From Christiangramia portivictoriae DSM 23547 (GTDB lineage Bacteria; Bacteroidota; Bacteroidia; Flavobacteriales; Flavobacteriaceae), in contig NZ_KE383971.1 in assembly GCF_000423045.1 (NCBI RefSeq), positions 816,092 through 880,091 of the forward strand: a stretch of 64,000 bases of DNA, in the 5' to 3' direction. The notes under the pieces were generated by a model that did not search any database, was not told the origin of the DNA, and saw nothing but the letters and a program-made list of their open reading frames with translations. Of the stretch, positions 30,238 through 40,439 are shown piece after piece. The position numbers and the translations under genes are program-made. The first letter of the stretch is position 1. Each line of letters opens with the position of its first letter.

Positions 30238-32364
30238 TTATACAGGTATGGACATTGCTTCTTTCTGCCTGCTCCAGTTTCTGTGAGCAGCAATTTGTTC
30301 AATAAATTTTTCAGGAGTTTTACCAACCAATACAGCGGCATCGTCCTTAAACTTTTTCAGGTAGGTGTTTTCAATTTTATCCATTACCTCCTTATCCAGC
30401 GCAATAGCCTTGCAATGCTTCAATGTTTCATTAATGAACTTAGCAGTTTTAGGAGCTTTGTTTAAAGCTTCCAGACTTTTCGCGCCTCCTGGAACATAGA
30501 TAGCGTCAAACAGAACACTTTCTGTAGTTAATAAAGCTGCGTCTACCTTATGACTTTTGCCCTGATCACACTTTACCGTACCTCCGTGCGGAGCAAGTAA
30601 CTGAACCATGGCACCCTTATCTTCCAGGGCTTTCTTCATCTTTCCAGCGGCTTCACCGTTAAATCCATCGCCTACAAGGAAACCGATCTGGCGGGTGGCG
30701 ATACTATCAGATTTCAAATGCGTTAAACTCAGTGCTTCAGATTTATCGAGGTAATTCTTTTTCTTTGGTGGCTGGTGCTTTTCAACATCAGCATCTGCTC
30801 CAATTGCCTGGTTTACCGGACCATCAACTTTACCCGGGATTTCCATACCCAATCCTTCAGCAACTCTTGTCGCAAGATCCTCATCGATCTGGTTGATGAT
30901 GTATAGCATACGCTCCTTGATATGATCATAAGTACATTTACCAATTTCGAAAGTATAAGCATCTGCAACATGATCCTTCTCCCAGTCGGTTAAACTTCTA
31001 TAGAACATTGCCGGTTGTGAGTAATGATCATTAAAGCTTTCGCTTCTGGCTCTTACCTTTCTGGCATCGATACGTTCCTCGTAAGATGTAAACCCACCTT
31101 CAGCCATTTTTGCCAGGTGCGGGCAACCTCCTCCAATAGAATTAGGGAAATAAGCGGTTTTTCCTTTATTGATGGTCATTCTCATGTGCGCGTCACGCTG
31201 ATTGTTATGCGTTTCGTTCACCGGGCGGTTGATTGGTAGCTCATGAAAGTTAGGACTGCCCAGTCTTGATAACTGTGTATCTGTATAAGAGAATAACCTG
31301 CCTTGTAGAAGTGGATCGTTAGAAAAGTCTATTCCGGGAACGATATGACCTGGGTGAAAAGCAACCTGTTCAGTTTCCGCAAAGAAGTTATCTGGGTTAC
31401 GATTTAGGGTCATCTTACCAATACGTTGTACCGGCACCATTTCTTCAGGGATCAGTTTTGTTGGATCAAGGATGTCAAATTCGAACTTATGTTCATCTTC
31501 TTCAGGAATGATCTGGAGTCCAAGTTCCCATTCAGGAAAGTGTCCCGCATCGATCGCATCCCATAGATCTCTTCTATGGAAGTCGGTATCTGCTCCATGA
31601 ATTTTAACCGCTTCGTCCCAGGTTACAGAATGTGTACCTAAAAGTGGCTTCCAGTGAAATTTGACGAAATGTGATTTTCCTTCAGCGTTAACCAATCTGA
31701 AGGTGTGAATACCGAACCCTTCCATCATTCGTAAACTTCTTGGAATGGCACGATCACTCATTACCCAGATATGGTTGTGCAGGGTTTCCGTAGTATGGGA
31801 GACGAAGTCGTAGAATGTATCGTGGGCAGATGCAGCCTGTGGAATCTCACGGTCCGGCTCAGGTTTTACGGCATGTATGAGATCAGGAAACTTCATGGAG
31901 TCCTGGATAAAAAATACCGGCATATTATTCCCTACCAGATCAAAAATTCCTTCTTCAGTATAAAATTTCACCGCGAATCCACGAACATCTCTTGCCAGGT
32001 CTGCCGAACCTTTAGAACCTGCAACGGTAGAGAATCTTACGAAAACAGGGGTTTTTCTGTTGGTATCAGTAAAAATTGGAGCTTTGGTATATGTTTCCAT
32101 GCTCTCATAAAGCTCAAAATACCCATGAGCACCGCTACCTCTTGCATGTACGATCCTTTCCGGAATTCTTTCGTGGTCAAAATGGGTAATCTTCTCTCTT
32201 AATATAAAATCCTCCAGTAAGGTGGCACCTCTTTCTCCGGCCTTCAGGGAATTATTGGTATCGTTCACTTTGACTCCCTGGTTGGTGGTCATAGTTTTAC
32301 CCTCAGCATTTTTAGTGTTTTTACTGAGGTCCTGGGACTTTTTATCCTTCTCTTTCTCGCTCAT
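30238..32364 (-). CDS. katE: Large-subunit monofunctional heme catalase (HPII type)
   Basis: 708 residues, the length of clade-2 catalases. The heme-binding core has VHARGSGAHGYFE (distal His), RFSTVAGSKGSADLARDVRG, and the proximal RLFSYTDTQLSRLG with the Tyr heme ligand. The C-terminal 150 residues (about 560-700) form the DJ-1/PfpI-like flavodoxin domain of HPII enzymes (VGDGFNGEAAGKMKKALEDK). It decomposes H2O2. The N-terminus is hydrophilic with no signal peptide. It is the intact catalase in the window, since the katG at 48834-51131 carries a nonsense codon. Confidence 0.95.
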   Translation of the reverse strand: MSEKEKDKKSQDLSKNTKNAEGKTMTTNQGVKVNDTNNSLKAGERGATLLEDFILREKITHFDHERIPERIVHARGSGAHGYFELYESMETYTKAPIFTDTNRKTPVFVRFSTVAGSKGSADLARDVRGFAVKFYTEEGIFDLVGNNMPVFFIQDSMKFPDLIHAVKPEPDREIPQAASAHDTFYDFVSHTTETLHNHIWVMSDRAIPRSLRMMEGFGIHTFRLVNAEGKSHFVKFHWKPLLGTHSVTWDEAVKIHGADTDFHRRDLWDAIDAGHFPEWELGLQIIPEEDEHKFEFDILDPTKLIPEEMVPVQRIGKMTLNRNPDNFFAETEQVAFHPGHIVPGIDFSNDPLLQGRLFSYTDTQLSRLGSPNFHELPINRPVNETHNNQRDAHMRMTINKGKTAYFPNSIGGGCPHLAKMAEGGFTSYEERIDARKVRARSESFNDHYSQPAMFYRSLTDWEKDHVADAYTFEIGKCTYDHIKERMLYIINQIDEDLATRVAEGLGMEIPGKVDGPVNQAIGADADVEKHQPPKKKNYLDKSEALSLTHLKSDSIATRQIGFLVGDGFNGEAAGKMKKALEDKGAMVQLLAPHGGTVKCDQGKSHKVDAALLTTESVLFDAIYVPGGAKSLEALNKAPKTAKFINETLKHCKAIALDKEVMDKIENTYLKKFKDDAAVLVGKTPEKFIEQIAAHRNWSRQKEAMSIPV

Positions 32365-32580: not shown

Positions 32581-33792
32581 TTAATTGGGTTTTGACAGAG
32601 AGAAATTAAAGGTGGTTCCCTGATTAAGAACACTTTTTACTGAAATTTCACCGTTCATGGTATCTACAAGTTTCTGGACAGTGCTAAGGCCAATCCCATG
32701 GCCGCGCTCTCCCGGAGTTCCATCTACTTCTATAACCGTAAAAAGGTCAAAGATCTGGTCTAGTTTTTCTTCAGGAATGCCAATGCCATTATCTGTCACA
32801 GAAAAATAGTAGAAGTTATTTTCTTCGCTGCAATCTATCTCGATCACAATCTCTTCAGCGGTGTTGTATTTAAGGCTATTGCTTATAAGATTCATCATGA
32901 TTTGGCCTAATCCGGCTCTGTTCCCACGAATTTTTAAGTTTTCCTCCGGAAGCCTAATGTCGCAATTAGCATCTATATGCAGCAGGTCAATGGTATCTTC
33001 CAATAGATCATTCAGAAAAAATTCTTTGACTTCTGAAGCTTTTGTGCCAACTTCAGAATAGTATTCCAGCAACCCGGTGATATACTCACTCAGCTTAAGT
33101 CCTGAATTTTTAATATAATCCAGATATTCTTTCCCTTTTTCATCCAGAACACTGGCATATTTCGCCTTAACAATATCTGAGGTGATAATCATGTTGGCCA
33201 GGGGCATTTTAAGATCATGGCTTACATTCCCTGCAAATTCCCGCAGAATTTTATTATTCTCGAGCTGTCGGCTCTGAACTTTCTTAAGCCTGCTATTCTG
33301 CAGGTGGTAATCATATAAAATCTCTACCTGCTTACCCAGGGCGATCAGGGATCTCTTTTGATGTATATTAAGTTTTTTCGGGGTTTTATTGATAACACAA
33401 AGTGTTCCCAGCGGCAAACCTTTGTTGTCTAGAATAGGAACCCCGGCATAGGATCTAAAATGCGTTTCTTCATTCAGCACAAGCGGATTGTCTGCAAAGC
33501 GGCTATCTTCCAAGGCGTTGTCCACCTCAAAAACCTTGTTGGGTTCCAGGATGGCATGTCCGCAAAAGGATACATCGCGGCCGGTTTGATCTGCACCAAG
33601 ACCTTTTTTGGATTTGAACCACTGTATCTCCTTATCCAGAATGGTAAGCAGTGCTACCGAAGTACCACAGATTTCACTGGCCAGTGTCGTAATGTTATCA
33701 TATGATTCCTGCGGAAGGGAGTCAAGAAGTCCTAGTTGTCTAACACTTCGTAATCTCAGATCTTCGTTTTCTGGTATTTCAGGCTCTTTCAT
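32581..33792 (-). CDS. GAF-domain sensor histidine kinase
   Basis: 403 residues, cytoplasmic (no membrane helix). A GAF domain at about 25-155 (VALLTILDKEIQWFKSKKGL; DVSFCGHAILEP; GVPILDNKGLPLGTLCVI) is followed by a HisKA phospho-acceptor (EFAGNVSHDLKMPLANM, His near residue 190). A HATPase domain has NLISNSLKYN (N box), FSVTDNGIGIPEEKL (G1) and GERGHGIGLSTVQKL (G2). The GAF type resembles diffusible-signal or redox/light sensors. No response regulator is adjacent. Confidence 0.93.
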   Translation of the reverse strand: MKEPEIPENEDLRLRSVRQLGLLDSLPQESYDNITTLASEICGTSVALLTILDKEIQWFKSKKGLGADQTGRDVSFCGHAILEPNKVFEVDNALEDSRFADNPLVLNEETHFRSYAGVPILDNKGLPLGTLCVINKTPKKLNIHQKRSLIALGKQVEILYDYHLQNSRLKKVQSRQLENNKILREFAGNVSHDLKMPLANMIITSDIVKAKYASVLDEKGKEYLDYIKNSGLKLSEYITGLLEYYSEVGTKASEVKEFFLNDLLEDTIDLLHIDANCDIRLPEENLKIRGNRAGLGQIMMNLISNSLKYNTAEEIVIEIDCSEENNFYYFSVTDNGIGIPEEKLDQIFDLFTVIEVDGTPGERGHGIGLSTVQKLVDTMNGEISVKSVLNQGTTFNFSLSKPN

Positions 33793-34030: not shown

Positions 34031-37000
34031 ATGCAGATCACCAATGCTTACCAGAATAACCTTAAGAACCTTAGCCTTGAGATCCCTGAAAATAAATTGA
34101 TAGTTCTTACGGGACTTTCAGGTTCTGGCAAGTCATCCCTGGCCATGGGGGTTATTGGAAACGAAGGTTACCGGTATTTCCTGGAAAGTTTACCTGCATA
34201 TAATCAGCAGAACGCAAATCTCATTCCCACTGCGGAAGTCGATGATATCAAAGATCTTCCTCCGGTAATAAAAGTAGAGCAGTCTAAACGGTTTCAGTCC
34301 ATTAATACCACTTTTGGAACTCTTTCTGAAATTACCTCCATTTTTAGAATACTTTTCGCCCGTTACTCTGCGAATAAACCCATGAGTAAATCGCTGTTCT
34401 CATTCAATCATCCTAAAGGAGCCTGCCAGACCTGCCGCGGAATTGGGGAAGCGGAATACATCGACATCGAAAAACTGGTAGGTGATGAAAATAAGACTTT
34501 AAGAGAGGGAGCGATTACCACAACTTTGCCCGGTGGTTATATAGTGTATTCACAGATCACTGTCGAAGAACTGGATAAGGTATGCCATGCTCATGGTTTC
34601 AGCGTTGATATACCCTGGAAAGAACTTAGCGATGAGCAGAAGGATGTCGTACTGAATGGGAGCGATCGACTAAAGGTTTTCTACGGAAAACACACGCTGG
34701 AATCGAGGTTACGCTGGGAAGGTTTTAAGGCAAAACCAAGAGAAGAAGGCTATTATAAGGGAATGTTACCCATTATGCAGGATATTTTAAAAAGAGACCG
34801 GAACAAGAATATTCTGAGGTTCGCCAGTTCCAGTCTTTGTCCCGCCTGTCATGGCGCCAGGATCAAACCAGATCATCTCAAATTTAAATGGCAGGACAGG
34901 AATTTTGCCGAATGGATGGATCTGCCGCTGGCTGAATTAAATAAAATTTTACAAGACCTGAATCTAAAGGCTGGCGAACAGGATCTTGTCCATAAGATCA
35001 AGGTGCAACTTGGAGATCTGGTACAGCTGGGAATGGGTAATTACTGTCTAAGCACCCCAAGTTCCAAGATATCCTCTGGAGATGCCCAACGTGTAAAACT
35101 TATCAAGCAGGTAAACAGCAACCTGCAGGGCATACTTTATATTTTTGATGAACCATCCATTGGACTGGCAGAAAATTTTCAGAAACACCTACGTCATATA
35201 TTGCAAAGATTGATCGCCAGGGGAAATACGGTCATGGTCGTGGAGCATGATCTTGCATTTATTCGTTCTGCCGATTGGATCATAGAATTGGGGCCTGGCG
35301 CTGGTATTCATGGTGGTGAAATTCTCTTTAACGGTCCAATGGAAGAATTTCTGAATTCTGAATCCCTTTCCACTCCCACGCTGGAGGAAATAAAAGCTTC
35401 AGAAAAGGATGCTATAGAAATAGTAAAAAAGCCTACCGCTGCATTAAATATAAACGCAGGCGAACTAACGGTCATCTCCCGTATGAATGAGACGATCGAA
35501 AAACAGCTTCAGGAAATTTCCGAAGAAAAGGATTTGAAATTGATCACTGTGAGTGACCAGCCTATTGGCAAAACTCCGCGTTCGAATCCAGCTACCTATA
35601 CCGGCCTGGCCGATAAGATTCGGGATCTGCTGGCAAAATCCCAGGACGCAAAAACCCGGAAGCTGGCGAAAGGATCCTTTTCATTTAATAATAAAGCTGG
35701 CAGATGTGAGGAATGTGAGGGAGCCGGGGTGATCACACTTTCCATGAACGTGATGGGAACGATAAACCAGGTTTGTCCGGTTTGTAAGGGTAAGCGCTTT
35801 AAGAAACAAGTGCTGGAGGTTAGATGGAATGGGAAGAATATCGCAGATATTTACGATCTCAGCATTCGGGAGGCCATCGAATTTTTCGAAGCAGAAAGCA
35901 AAATACTCACTATTTTAAGGCTGATGCAGGACCTCGGACTGGATTATTTGAAATTAGGACAACCTTCGAATACTTTATCTGGAGGTGAAGCCCAGCGCAT
36001 CAAACTGACCAAGCATTTTGCCAAACCTTCTAAAGACAATATTTTAATACTTGAAGAGCCCAGTATTGGACTGCACCAGCGTAATGTGGGACAATTAATC
36101 ACTGCTTTGCATAAGCTAAAAGAGCAAACGGCAGGTATCGTTTGTATTGAAAATCATGAGCTTTTTAAACAACATGCAGACGCATTTTTCAATAATTCAG
36201 AAGATATTCTTGAAACATCTATTCCGGCTCCAGAATTCCAGCGAACAGACGAGATAAGGATTCTTGGAGCTCGTACACACTACTTAAAGAATCTTGACCT
36301 TGTTTTGCAGAAGAGTGCATTGATCACGGTAACAGGAATCTCGGGATCTGGAAAATCTTCATTGCTTATAGACACTCTGCATGCGTATGGAATGCAGGAA
36401 ATGACAAGGCAATTTTCAGCCTATCAACAGTCCAGGGTTGGAGTGAATTTTCAAATGGAAGTCGAACAAATCGATGGATTAACGCCTAGTATTTGTGTGA
36501 CCCGAAAAGTTCCTAACTTCACGAACAGGTCTGATCTTGCCAAGCAAACAGGAATTGATAAGCTGTTACGATTTGCATTTTCCCGTAAGGCAGAATTTGA
36601 GGGAGAAGAACTTTCTGCCAGTCATTTTTCCAATAATCATGAACTGGGAAAATGCCAGATTTGTGAGGGCCTGGGCGAGGAACTGCTTCCAGACATTACG
36701 AAACTGGCGCCCGATACCAGCTTGAGTGTTTCAGAAGGAGTTTTCGAGCATAACAAAGCGCTGTCTTACTATGGGCAGAGAGACAGCCAGTATATGGCCA
36801 TTCTGGAAGAAGTAGGTAAGGAATATGGCTTTGACCTCAGTACTGCGTTCGAAGAATTTTCCGAAGAACAGAAGATGATCATCTTTGAAGGAACCGGAGA
36901 GAAGGTGTGGGCAGCCCACTGGAAGTTCAAAACCAAAACCAGGGAAGGAATCCAGCAGATCAGGATGAAATGGGAGGGACTGAATAATTACCTGAAACAG

Positions 37001-38521
37001 GAATATTACAAGACCAGGAAAAATAAATTTATCGAGAATCTAACCGCGCTTTTCTCAACAGAAATTTGTAGTAATTGCCTTGGAAGCGGATTGAAACCAG
37101 AGCGATTGAATTTCAGTATCGGTGGTCTCTCTATTCAGGAGATAAAAAATCTGGATTTCTGCGGAATCGATGACTGGATGCAAAAAGCAGATAATTATGA
37201 GCAAATTGATCGGGATTTAATTGAAAAAATCGGCCCATTCTTAGTAAATACGATCCACCGGGCCAGGCAGTTGCATATAGATCACCTTCAATTAAACCGA
37301 AGATCTCAAAGTTTATCTGGTGGAGAAAACCAGCGAGTAGCTTTGATCACACAGTTAAACAGTCCGTTGAAGGGCATCACCTACCTACTGGACGAGCCTT
37401 CCGCAGGTCTTTCAGAACATAACATTCCAGATCTTATTGCGATTCTAAAGGAACTGGTCGCCAAAGGAAATACTGTTATTGTCATCGAACATCATAAAAA
37501 GATCATCAAAGCGGCGACTGAGCTTATTGAGATTGGTCCATTGGCTGGTAAAAATGGCGGACAAATAACTTTCCAGGGAACTCCTGCAGATTTTTTAAAG
37601 CAGGAAAGCACCCATGCATACTTCAAAAAACAGGAGGAGGCTTTTGAATTTACTTCTGAAGAAAAGGATTACATCAAGATTAGGCATTTATCTCGTTATA
37701 CTTTACAACGTGATGTTCTGGAAATCCCGGTAGGAGGGATCACGGCCTTAAGCGGAAAGAGTGGAATAGGCAAAACCACTCTGGTGAAGGATATCATTAT
37801 ACCCTCGATCCGACATCGAAAACCATTTTTTTGTAAGGATATTTCATTCCCTGAGAATTATACGAATGCCCATTATTTCGAGGCGAAAAAGTTAAGAGCA
37901 CATGCCGCCACTTTGCTCGTTTCTTACCTGGATACGCTGAAGGAGCTTGGGAAAATCTTCGCAGAGGATTCAAAACTGAAACCAAAGGATTTTTCTTATA
38001 AAACGAAAACGAGTCAGTGTTCTGATTGTAATGGAAAAGGTTATCAGGAAACGAGTCTTGATGTTACCGCCAATGCCGTGGAAACCTGTGTCACCTGCAA
38101 GGGACAGCGCTACACGCAGGAAATCCTGCATCATACAAAGCATCAAATGAATATCGCCGAGGTGCTTGCCTTAGATTTGCATGGCTTTAAAACATGGCTC
38201 GAGGACCATAAGAAACTTGAAAAATTATGGCTGGTTCTAGAAAGACTTCAGAAAATAGGGCTGGGACATTTAAGACTGGATCAACCCATACAAAGTTTGT
38301 CTTCTGGTGAAAAGCAGCGGTTATTGTTGCTGAACTGGCTGTTACAGGGAAGCGAGGATATGTTGTTTATTCTTGATGAACCCAGTACCGGCTTGCATTA
38401 TGCAGATATCGACCTGTTATTCGGGATTCTGAAAGATCTTAGTATCAAAAATGATATTTTAGTCATAGACCATAATCAATATCTTCTGGAGAAGATAGGA
38501 GTTGGAGTAGAGCTGAAGTAA
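34031..38521 (+). CDS. Double-length UvrA-like ABC protein with four nucleotide-binding modules
   Basis: 1496 residues, against about 750-950 for known UvrA classes. Four ABC modules are visible. Module 1 (from residue 1): GLSGSGKSS at 28, KISSGDAQRVK, YIFDEPSIGL. Module 2: the Walker A position is degenerate (ELTVISRMNETIEKQ), with LSGGEAQRIK and ILEEPSIGL. Module 3 (about 740): GISGSGKSS, LSGGENQRVA, LLDEPSAGL. Module 4 (about 1220): GKSGIGKTT, LSSGEKQRLL, ILDEPSTGL. Each module keeps CxxC zinc-like pairs (CQTC, CPAC; CEEC, CPVC; CQIC, CSNC; CSDC, CVTC). It looks like two class-III UvrA paralogues fused head to tail, giving an intramolecular 'dimer'. Probable role: DNA-lesion or DNA-binding-drug protection. 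No uvrB/uvrC is adjacent. Confidence 0.88.
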   Translation: MQITNAYQNNLKNLSLEIPENKLIVLTGLSGSGKSSLAMGVIGNEGYRYFLESLPAYNQQNANLIPTAEVDDIKDLPPVIKVEQSKRFQSINTTFGTLSEITSIFRILFARYSANKPMSKSLFSFNHPKGACQTCRGIGEAEYIDIEKLVGDENKTLREGAITTTLPGGYIVYSQITVEELDKVCHAHGFSVDIPWKELSDEQKDVVLNGSDRLKVFYGKHTLESRLRWEGFKAKPREEGYYKGMLPIMQDILKRDRNKNILRFASSSLCPACHGARIKPDHLKFKWQDRNFAEWMDLPLAELNKILQDLNLKAGEQDLVHKIKVQLGDLVQLGMGNYCLSTPSSKISSGDAQRVKLIKQVNSNLQGILYIFDEPSIGLAENFQKHLRHILQRLIARGNTVMVVEHDLAFIRSADWIIELGPGAGIHGGEILFNGPMEEFLNSESLSTPTLEEIKASEKDAIEIVKKPTAALNINAGELTVISRMNETIEKQLQEISEEKDLKLITVSDQPIGKTPRSNPATYTGLADKIRDLLAKSQDAKTRKLAKGSFSFNNKAGRCEECEGAGVITLSMNVMGTINQVCPVCKGKRFKKQVLEVRWNGKNIADIYDLSIREAIEFFEAESKILTILRLMQDLGLDYLKLGQPSNTLSGGEAQRIKLTKHFAKPSKDNILILEEPSIGLHQRNVGQLITALHKLKEQTAGIVCIENHELFKQHADAFFNNSEDILETSIPAPEFQRTDEIRILGARTHYLKNLDLVLQKSALITVTGISGSGKSSLLIDTLHAYGMQEMTRQFSAYQQSRVGVNFQMEVEQIDGLTPSICVTRKVPNFTNRSDLAKQTGIDKLLRFAFSRKAEFEGEELSASHFSNNHELGKCQICEGLGEELLPDITKLAPDTSLSVSEGVFEHNKALSYYGQRDSQYMAILEEVGKEYGFDLSTAFEEFSEEQKMIIFEGTGEKVWAAHWKFKTKTREGIQQIRMKWEGLNNYLKQEYYKTRKNKFIENLTALFSTEICSNCLGSGLKPERLNFSIGGLSIQEIKNLDFCGIDDWMQKADNYEQIDRDLIEKIGPFLVNTIHRARQLHIDHLQLNRRSQSLSGGENQRVALITQLNSPLKGITYLLDEPSAGLSEHNIPDLIAILKELVAKGNTVIVIEHHKKIIKAATELIEIGPLAGKNGGQITFQGTPADFLKQESTHAYFKKQEEAFEFTSEEKDYIKIRHLSRYTLQRDVLEIPVGGITALSGKSGIGKTTLVKDIIIPSIRHRKPFFCKDISFPENYTNAHYFEAKKLRAHAATLLVSYLDTLKELGKIFAEDSKLKPKDFSYKTKTSQCSDCNGKGYQETSLDVTANAVETCVTCKGQRYTQEILHHTKHQMNIAEVLALDLHGFKTWLEDHKKLEKLWLVLERLQKIGLGHLRLDQPIQSLSSGEKQRLLLLNWLLQGSEDMLFILDEPSTGLHYADIDLLFGILKDLSIKNDILVIDHNQYLLEKIGVGVELK

Positions 38522-38536
38522 GGTCACTAGAAAATA

Positions 38537-38571
38537 AAAACCCGGTATGTAATCCTGATACATACCGGGTC
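38537..38571. terminator. Bidirectional terminator
   Basis: ACCCGGTATGT-AATCCTG-ACATACCGGGT-like stem (with one adjusted base) between the UvrA-like gene ending at 38521 and the PLP enzyme ending at 38595; A-rich before and T-containing after. Confidence 0.8.
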
Positions 38572-38594
38572 TGTTTATAATTGAGTTGATGGTT

Positions 38595-40439
38595 TTATTT
38601 GATATCTTCAACAAATAGGGAAAAGACTTTTTTATGCATTTCAAGGTCAAGTTTGGGTGAAACCGAGACCCGCGCGATATAATCCTTGTCATCTTCCTTG
38701 GTAGTTCCCTGGGTTGAGGTTGCCGGAATGGTCCAGTAACAACCTTTTAACTGACCGTAACTTACACAATATTTACTTTCTTCAGGAATGCTGGTGATCA
38801 TCATATTGATAAGTTTTTGGTTCAGGTCCCTTTTGTAGGACTCGCGATCTGCAGCGGTCTCTCCTTTTGTAGGAAGATCAAGAGAAAAAACAGAAGGTGT
38901 AAAACCTGCCTTGGCTAACTCTTCTGAAACAAAATTGATCTTTGCTTCGGGAAGTTCAGCTTTAATAAAATTCACGAATTCACGGGTATTTTTATAGGCG
39001 TCTGCAATTCTTTGATTCATGGACGGTAATTGTTCTGCCAGGATTTCTACCTGCAGGGAAGTTGCTTCGTTATCGCAGATTTTTAGATGCCTGTTGATCT
39101 TTTCCATTAATGCAGCCGCTTTTTGATTGGCAACGGCATAACCGGCAGTACATTTTCCACCACTCGGAAATTTGGATCCGCTTACATAAGATATGACTCT
39201 GATTCCAGATAAAATACCATCCTCCCCACAAAACTGTACATTCGGGCAGAAAGTCTGGTCCAGAATGAACACCGGATCAACCGCAGCATTTCCATTGGCA
39301 TTGGTACGACTTTTAGCCAGTACTTCCTGTAATTTTTCAAGGTCAGGAACTTCCACGCGGGGGTTTGTTGGAATTTCAGCAATGATAAGTGGTACGGCAT
39401 TTTCATGCGCGGCCTGATCCAGTACCTTGTCGGTACTCTGCACCATGTCATTATCGCCATCTACGGGAAGGTCCATGATCTCAACATTATCCAGGCAGGC
39501 GGCGACACGGCGAGCCTGATCGTTCGTGCCCCCATAGCAATTTGGCGGAACGATGATTCGAATATCTTTTCCAGGATGTCTGGTCATTGCATCATCAATA
39601 AGCCCCATCATAATCGCGTACTGCATGGAAAGACCGCAAGAGCCTACCAGGACCTTTGAACCGGTCGCGGTGATCTTTTGAACTTCATCAACTACTTTCT
39701 TAAGATTGTCATCCTTAAAATTTTTATTCTCTTCGGAAGAAGGCTTCACCAGCTGTTGCAATAGCGTATGGGTATCTGCCGGCGTCATCGATATGGTTTC
39801 CCTTCTTCGTACATGCTGAATTTCAGAAATATAAGAAGCGTTCTTCTCACCATTTACGACTATTACACTTCCCAAATCCTGCTGAAGGCTCAGTAAAAAG
39901 TCAATGTTCTTTTCTATTTTTAAATTCTTCAGATTAGCACTGGAAGTAATATAAATGCTACTTCCTTCGAAATCAGGGATACTATCACCCTCCTCGACCT
40001 TCAGCAATTCAAATTCAAAATTATAAACGCTTCGGAAGAGATCAAAATCGAATGCTTCCGGAAGGTTTTCAGAAAATATGATTCGAGTTTTACTTTTTTC
40101 GAATAGGTTTTTCCGTAGTACAGCCAGCAGGGGAGTGGTTCTGGAAGAAAAGGCAATAATATGATCAGCTCTTAGATCATTTAATTTGCCCACATACCAT
40201 TCCAGAATGGAAGATAGTGGATGTCCCAGTCTTATATAATCATAAGCAGTAGGTAGTTCTGCTAATTTTTCGGCGCTATGGTCATTCTTTGCAACCAGCG
40301 TCTCGAATTTATCAAGGAATTCTGTTTTCGCCTGCTCTTCGTTATAAATATCCAGCCGGTGTGTGGTTAATTTTACCCAGTCCTGCGGAATATTTGGGAG
40401 CATGTTTTCTATATATTCGGTCACTTTAGACTTATCCAT
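38595..40439 (-). CDS. Large PLP-dependent Cys/Met-metabolism-type enzyme
   Basis: 614 residues. The region from about 210 on follows the cystathionine gamma-synthase/lyase fold: VLVGSCGLSMQYAIMMGLID (cofactor phosphate region), PLIIAEIPTNPRVEVPDLEK, ILDQTFCPNVQF (cofactor Asp), and YVSGSKFPSGGKCTAGYAV with the probable Schiff-base Lys in SGSKF. The final part has RVSVSPKLDLEMHKKVF. The 200-residue N-terminal extension has no recognised domain and is unlike typical 380-400-residue family members. It is probably a fold-type I PLP enzyme for sulfur amino acids, reaction undetermined. Single gene. Confidence 0.75.
   Translation of the reverse strand: MDKSKVTEYIENMLPNIPQDWVKLTTHRLDIYNEEQAKTEFLDKFETLVAKNDHSAEKLAELPTAYDYIRLGHPLSSILEWYVGKLNDLRADHIIAFSSRTTPLLAVLRKNLFEKSKTRIIFSENLPEAFDFDLFRSVYNFEFELLKVEEGDSIPDFEGSSIYITSSANLKNLKIEKNIDFLLSLQQDLGSVIVVNGEKNASYISEIQHVRRRETISMTPADTHTLLQQLVKPSSEENKNFKDDNLKKVVDEVQKITATGSKVLVGSCGLSMQYAIMMGLIDDAMTRHPGKDIRIIVPPNCYGGTNDQARRVAACLDNVEIMDLPVDGDNDMVQSTDKVLDQAAHENAVPLIIAEIPTNPRVEVPDLEKLQEVLAKSRTNANGNAAVDPVFILDQTFCPNVQFCGEDGILSGIRVISYVSGSKFPSGGKCTAGYAVANQKAAALMEKINRHLKICDNEATSLQVEILAEQLPSMNQRIADAYKNTREFVNFIKAELPEAKINFVSEELAKAGFTPSVFSLDLPTKGETAADRESYKRDLNQKLINMMITSIPEESKYCVSYGQLKGCYWTIPATSTQGTTKEDDKDYIARVSVSPKLDLEMHKKVFSLFVEDIK

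Follow-up and report, generated by a model that had tools for sequence, protein, structure and literature searches.

Why should a bacterium that already encodes the ordinary excision repair proteins keep a UvrA-like protein of twice the usual length, with four ATP-binding cassette (ABC) modules in one chain and one of its ATP sites apparently dead? The question is raised by a gene of Christiangramia portivictoriae DSM 23547, in a 64-kb stretch of the contig NZ_KE383971.1 (positions 816,092 to 880,091; C2 of the 3.27-Mb source genome), the whole of which is called the window here. The gene (34031..38521, forward strand) starts with ATG and runs through 1496 codons with no internal stop, and its translation and profile searches identify a double-length UvrA-like ATPase; coordinates are positions in the window, and all residue numbers refer to this 1496-aa fusion protein. 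With somewhat more confidence than doubt, we read the protein as a covalently tethered, asymmetric UvrA pseudo-dimer that acts outside UvrB-dependent repair.

Four ABC Modules in One Reading Frame

Relatives were collected in one scan of a collection of 84,980 species with short exact peptides, which returned 57 loci. Full-length proteins are encoded at 48 of these, giving 49 with the window protein, and the motif counts below refer to these 49. They comprise a short group of 31 (1493–1521 aa, including the window protein, to which the other members are 63–70% identical) and a long group of 18 (1565–1696 aa, 38–42% identical to the window protein). Nine loci at contig ends or with interrupted frames stand outside the counts (L026, L036, L050, L052, L057, L061, L062, L064, and L065).

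In BLASTP comparisons with two class I UvrA proteins of the same genome and one plasmid-encoded class II UvrA, modules 1 and 3 matched nucleotide-binding domain I (NBD-I) best and modules 2 and 4 matched NBD-II, an order (NBD-I/NBD-II/NBD-I/NBD-II) that corresponds to two UvrA units head to tail, of 734 aa (N half) and 762 aa (C half). All four modules carry at least two CxxC pairs in 49/49 proteins, and Pfam places UvrA_DNA-bind (two stretches) and ABC_tran on the fusion protein. A preliminary description of this DNA had reported four ABC modules in a single open reading frame (ORF) of 1496 residues, and the module order and the CxxC pairs bear it out. Module 1 (NBD-I of the N half, aa 1–455, 34031..35395) keeps Walker A (aa 27–36), Walker B, and the H-loop; module 2 (NBD-II of the N half, aa 456–734, 35396..36232) has a degenerate ATP-binding part and an intact LSGGE signature; module 3 (NBD-I of the C half, aa 735–1200, 36233..37630) keeps Walker A, Walker B, signature, and H-loop and carries the UvrA DNA-binding insertion domain; module 4 (NBD-II of the C half, aa 1201–1496, 37631..38518) keeps Walker A (GKSGIGKT), Walker B, and the H-loop, all on the forward strand. 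The joint between the units is predicted to be short, with the last strand of unit one at aa 718–720 and the first of unit two at aa 741; these structure predictions cover pieces of the chain.

A sequencing or assembly join of two genes, which the preliminary description had allowed for, was considered and excluded by the 49 in-frame full-length proteins of the same design (the window protein and 48 others), and low ratios of nonsynonymous to synonymous substitution (dN/dS) contradict it as well. Measured against the same-genus relatives L071 and L072, dN/dS is 0.084 and 0.078 for the whole gene and 0.10–0.13 for module 2 alone; the fusion gene is under purifying selection. These values bear equally on the idea that the gene is decaying, a tandem duplication heading for loss: it would account for a dead site and for the interrupted frames of two of the 57 loci (L057 and L062), but with dN/dS of about 0.08 overall, the low ratio of module 2 against the two relatives, and an architecture common to 49 proteins down to 38% identity, we find it scarcely credible.

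The N-Half Distal ATP Site

Each ATP of UvrA is clasped by both NBDs of a single chain, one contributing its ATP-binding domain and the other its signature domain, and the proximal site is formed by ATP-binding domain I with signature domain II, the distal site by ATP-binding domain II with signature domain I, as set out in passages of two earlier papers (PMC10192343; PMC6486640). Motif scoring of the composite sites follows this rule. By motif, Walker, H-loop, and signature residues have been lost chiefly from the N-half distal site, which is hit on both faces and thus across two modules: in the short group, module 2 has its Walker A, its Walker B DE, and its H-loop, and module 1 its signature, each in 0/31 proteins. 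In the window protein the lost Walker A of module 2 lies at aa 479–493 (LTVISRMNETIEKQL, 35465..35509, forward strand) and its Walker B, at aa 671–681 (36041..36073, forward strand), reads ILILEEPSIGL; the signature face of the site, in module 1, reads ISSGDAQRV (aa 347–355, 35069..35095, forward strand) and is degenerate. The preliminary description had pointed to SRMNETIE at the module 2 P-loop and to EEP in place of DEP, both of which are present in the translation, and its view that one site looks inactive and the halves are asymmetric agrees with the scoring of both halves; it had confined the defect to module 2, which is too narrow, as the signature of module 1 has decayed alongside.

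The loss is graded: every protein has the signature changed, nearly every one Walker B and the H-loop, and those of the window's group Walker A as well. The module 1 signature is SGGE/Q in 0/49 proteins, and in the long group (0/18) it reads LRASE, LSASE, LTRGE, and similar; module 2 of the long group has Walker B DE in 1/18 and the H-loop in 2/18, with a P-loop (G....GK[ST]) in 15/18. The other sites show a different picture: modules 1 and 3 retain both Walker motifs, and modules 2 and 3 their signatures, in 49/49 proteins, as module 4 does Walker A, Walker B, and the H-loop; the module 4 signature is of the mildly altered LSSGE type in 31/31 short proteins, including that of the window, and SGGE in 16 of the 18 long ones. 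At the level of sequence motifs, joint decay of the two faces agrees with intramolecular pairing of signature I with ATP-binding II. ABC proteins with one composite site lost are familiar from CFTR, TAP, and SUR, which are membrane proteins, not DNA scanners.

Module 2 also has some 56 fewer residues in the short group than in the long one (mean length 281 aa vs. 337 aa). Most of it is retained in two proteins, L039 and L040, with a P-loop ending in GKA and an H-loop, and in L040 also DEP. Both stand beside the window's group in some of the half trees described below, with weak support (84 for the C halves in the 28-protein tree; 87/48 for the N halves in the 10-protein tree), so that the later module 2 losses may be separate in the two groups.

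The C half differs in another way. To judge from the alignment, in which the Q-loop columns were assigned by us, the N half has decayed in its ATP-site motifs and the C half in those of the DNA loop and the Q-loop. A loop of the RTPRSNPATY type is found in module 2, an NBD-II, in 49/49 proteins (in the window protein aa 507–525, VSDQPIGKTPRSNPATYTG, 35549..35605, forward strand, comprising the Q-loop and the putative DNA-contact loop) and in module 4 in 0/49, that of the window included; among the reference sequences it occurs in 12/13 class I, 2/2 UvrA2-type, and 0/7 class II rows. The Q-loop column of module 3 holds Arg in place of Gln in all 48 readable proteins, the window protein among them, and the Q-loop Gln of module 4 is present in 0/31 short and 17/18 long proteins. 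We take the RTPRSNPATY-type loop to be probably DNA-contacting, in view of its residues and of a published statement on signature domain II. According to passages of that work, signature domain II of UvrA contains residues critical for DNA and UvrB (PMC6486640).

Known UvrA Classes and a Proposed Role Apart from UvrB

The UvrB-binding domain, PF17760, is absent among the 19 families matching the window protein and, for the long form L045, among the matches listed (25 of 26 families); in a control, a uvrA product of the same genome (L004) scored 62.6 bits against a cut-off of 23.3. The absence of this domain defines class II UvrA, as stated in passages of PMC5128194. The fusion protein is like class II UvrA (Deinococcus radiodurans UvrA2, 2vf7; Ecm16, 7sh1; DrrC) in lacking the domain, in the UvrA fold, with fold matches to 7sh1 and 2vf7, in two zinc modules per unit, and in unit length (745–784 aa in complete single-chain references, 734 and 762 aa in the halves), but it has four modules per chain with one distal site degenerate, and its N and C halves both lie outside the clade (100/100) made up by the seven class II rows. 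With class I UvrA it shares module order and motifs, the N half keeping the TPRSNPATY loop, and it differs in being fused, in the degenerate site, and in the PF17760 result. Against TIGR00630 (cut-off 729.8) the whole chain scores 1042.6 bits, summed over stretches of both halves; alone, the halves of the window protein score 603.9 and 452.8 bits, and those of L045 814.6 (N) and 730.3.

The preliminary description took known UvrA proteins always to have two modules, which does not hold: the NCBIfam model NF001885/PRK00635, a double-length excinuclease A that we take to be chlamydial, spans 1809 positions, about two UvrA lengths, as in the fusion. Double-length UvrA is therefore known already as an NCBIfam model, and this lineage lies outside it, with 660.1 bits against a curated cut-off of 3054 and with the best stretches of both halves, in the window protein and in L045, falling in the first half of the model. 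Among the matches listed from the open-licence literature, none described a four-module UvrA, this lineage, or a UvrA in which a single composite site is degenerate. A fused type possibly designated 'class III UvrA' did not come up among these matches either.

The genome also encodes two other UvrA proteins (frames of 966 and 938 aa), UvrB (1004 bits), and UvrC (532.5 bits), and because these are present excision repair need not depend on the fusion gene. The same set of genes would serve a protein accessory to nucleotide excision repair, handing special lesions to canonical UvrA and UvrB or forming mixed dimers with class I UvrA. The N half of the long form, above the TIGR00630 cut-off (814.6 vs. 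729.8), and the DNA loop that N halves share with most class I rows speak for such a role, which nevertheless seems to us unlikely, given that the UvrB-binding domain was not found in the window protein or, among the matches listed, in L045, and that the distribution is sparse (at least 3/100 genomes of the family).

As a tethered pseudo-dimer, the protein would pair its N and C halves within one chain in the saddle-shaped arrangement of a UvrA dimer, the N half providing most of the contact with DNA and a proximal ATPase that responds to it, and the C half two ATP sites as a switch. It would scan duplex DNA and displace or shield ligands that are bulky or bound without a covalent link, a role already proposed for class II UvrA. 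The role of that class is called unclear in passages of PMC9241694 and PMC5128194, which mention proposals that it protects against intercalators or confers tolerance to damaging agents; a UvrB-free DNA-scanning ATPase acting on bulky or non-covalent ligands is suggested here because PF17760 was not found and because of these proposed roles. In ordinary UvrA an active distal site favours dimerisation, according to passages of PMC6486640, and tethering may have made one distal site dispensable: a tethered protein would need no help to dimerise, which could explain the loss. That tethering replaced ATP-driven dimerisation, left the N-half distal site at liberty to degenerate, and split the roles between an N half for DNA and lesion and a C half as ATP switch is a step we propose tentatively, as possible but somewhat short of probable.

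Several points weigh against the tethered pseudo-dimer. A distal Walker A mutant of a bacterial UvrA had very low ATPase activity without DNA, raised more than tenfold by native DNA, as reported in passages of PMC6486640, so that loss of a distal site is costly, at least with both copies hit. Pairing within one chain is our inference, and two chains could dimerise, giving eight modules. The C half of the window's group may hydrolyse poorly too, since it has an LSSGE signature and neither module 3 nor module 4 carries Gln at the Q-loop. The Q-loop Gln of module 2, part of the supposedly dead site, is kept in 30/31 short proteins (in the long group the column holds His in 12/18 and Gln in 6/18), and the variable flanking genes described below supply no functional hint.

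Should tethering indeed have taken the place of ATP-driven dimerisation, the product would be a UvrA heterodimer made by nature as one chain, with three ATP sites whose separate jobs are directly readable. How dimerising, scanning, and lesion sensing are divided among the four ATP sites of a UvrA dimer is still called an open question in passages of PMC6486640. In our view this division of labour is obscure partly because any site mutation in a homodimer alters two sites at once; a single chain in which just one distal site is degenerate, and just one half has the NBD-II loop, would allow single-site testing. It would also add a lineage to the little-understood UvrA proteins acting without UvrB.

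Origin, Distribution, and Genomic Neighbourhood

Maximum-likelihood trees of the halves were built from 28 and from 10 of the 49 fusion proteins, together with reference rows (13 class I, 7 class II, and 2 UvrA2-type), the root being arbitrary and L059 left out for its runs of X; another tree holds the 31 short and two long proteins. One branch sets the N halves apart and another the C halves, each at full support, a grouping that would fit one fusion inherited as a unit. The N halves are nearer the class I and UvrA2-type rows (89/81), with the C halves apart; a tree with N and C halves as one clade was not rejected by the approximately unbiased test (p-AU 0.244). Of the earlier proposal of two fused UvrA paralogues, the two units in one chain stand, whereas joining of unlike paralogues and tandem duplication are both compatible with the half trees. 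Two single-length UvrA2-type proteins of Bacteroidota (L095 and L096, from genomes G072 and G033) have the NBD-I signature LSPGELQR, another deviation at the distal-site signature.

All relatives whose records name a group presumably belong to the Bacteroidota. The closest named loci are L061, from an uncultured Christiangramia metagenome-assembled genome (MAG; 95% identity over its segment), and L026 (82%); the interrupted copies L057 and L062 come from Lacinutrix and a Fluviicola MAG. Counting the window, the fusion is found in 20/24 genomes of the genus, at least 3/100 of the family (one genome per genus), and at least 2/395 of the phylum, the last two being lower bounds from searches that scored 2–10 candidates per genome. 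A long-form query, scored at the same depth, matched at least 43/99 genomes of the phylum, and among the candidates scored the window's match alone lies in a frame above 1022 aa. Further double-length UvrA candidates in other Bacteroidota, with reported frames of 1263–1802 aa, were rejected, as all ten fetched regions are single-length, with ordinary UvrA of 881–958 aa inside frames of 927–997 aa; the longer frames were thus not reproduced. As a probe for double-length genes NF001885 was uninformative, matching 198/198 genomes with 0 over the cut-off.

A thin and uneven distribution would suit an anti-phage defence or mobile-element protein, and the PADLOC profile mad3 (PDLC04135) matches the fusion protein at 241.2 bits; an ordinary class I UvrA from this genome reaches a higher score (292.4 bits), so the match is generic, and a defence role drawn from it is ruled out by this control. 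With the gene in most genomes of the genus, where it is more core-like, with no place of a double-length UvrA on plasmids or phages among the matches listed (40 of 871 and 15 of 49 records, with spans of at most about 2.8 kb), and with no relative found in one scan of viral contigs, we regard any such role as very improbable. With the mad3 profile matching an ordinary class I UvrA in this way, UvrA genes could pass for MADS components.

Copies from Marivirga (Marivirgaceae) stand among those of Flavobacteriaceae, with Shimodaira–Hasegawa-like approximate likelihood ratio (SH-aLRT) support of 94–99. This placement suggests horizontal transfer, of which, by the warning of the tree tool, it is not proof. 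Interspersed copies would also be expected of a transfer-spread ATPase for self-resistance or tolerance to one DNA-binding natural product, like DrrC or Ecm16, a role that class II UvrA proteins of antibiotic producers have according to passages of PMC9241694 and PMC10413001. A conserved operon partner was sought and none was found among 58 regions (the window and 57 loci), the neighbours varying; no neighbour family recurs at a majority of the loci, the commonest besides the fusion being a pyridoxal 5'-phosphate (PLP) enzyme in 11/58 regions, in both groups and at varying distance. Self-resistance is accordingly a doubtful explanation, with the proviso that neighbours were compared by clustering, which leaves room for a producer cluster in a single genome.

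In the window the fusion gene is preceded by two genes on the reverse strand, a long catalase with a DJ-1-type C domain (30238–32364) and a GAF sensor histidine kinase pointing away from it (32581–33792), and followed by a convergent reverse-strand gene for a 614-aa protein with a weak match (35 bits) to Cys/Met PLP enzymes (38595–40439), a member of the family that recurs in 11/58 regions. A scan for sigma-70 promoters gave 9 sites against 11.2 in shuffled sequences. Between the convergent genes lies an inverted-repeat stem of 12–14 pairs (38538..38572), which as a pattern match resembles a terminator for both strands.

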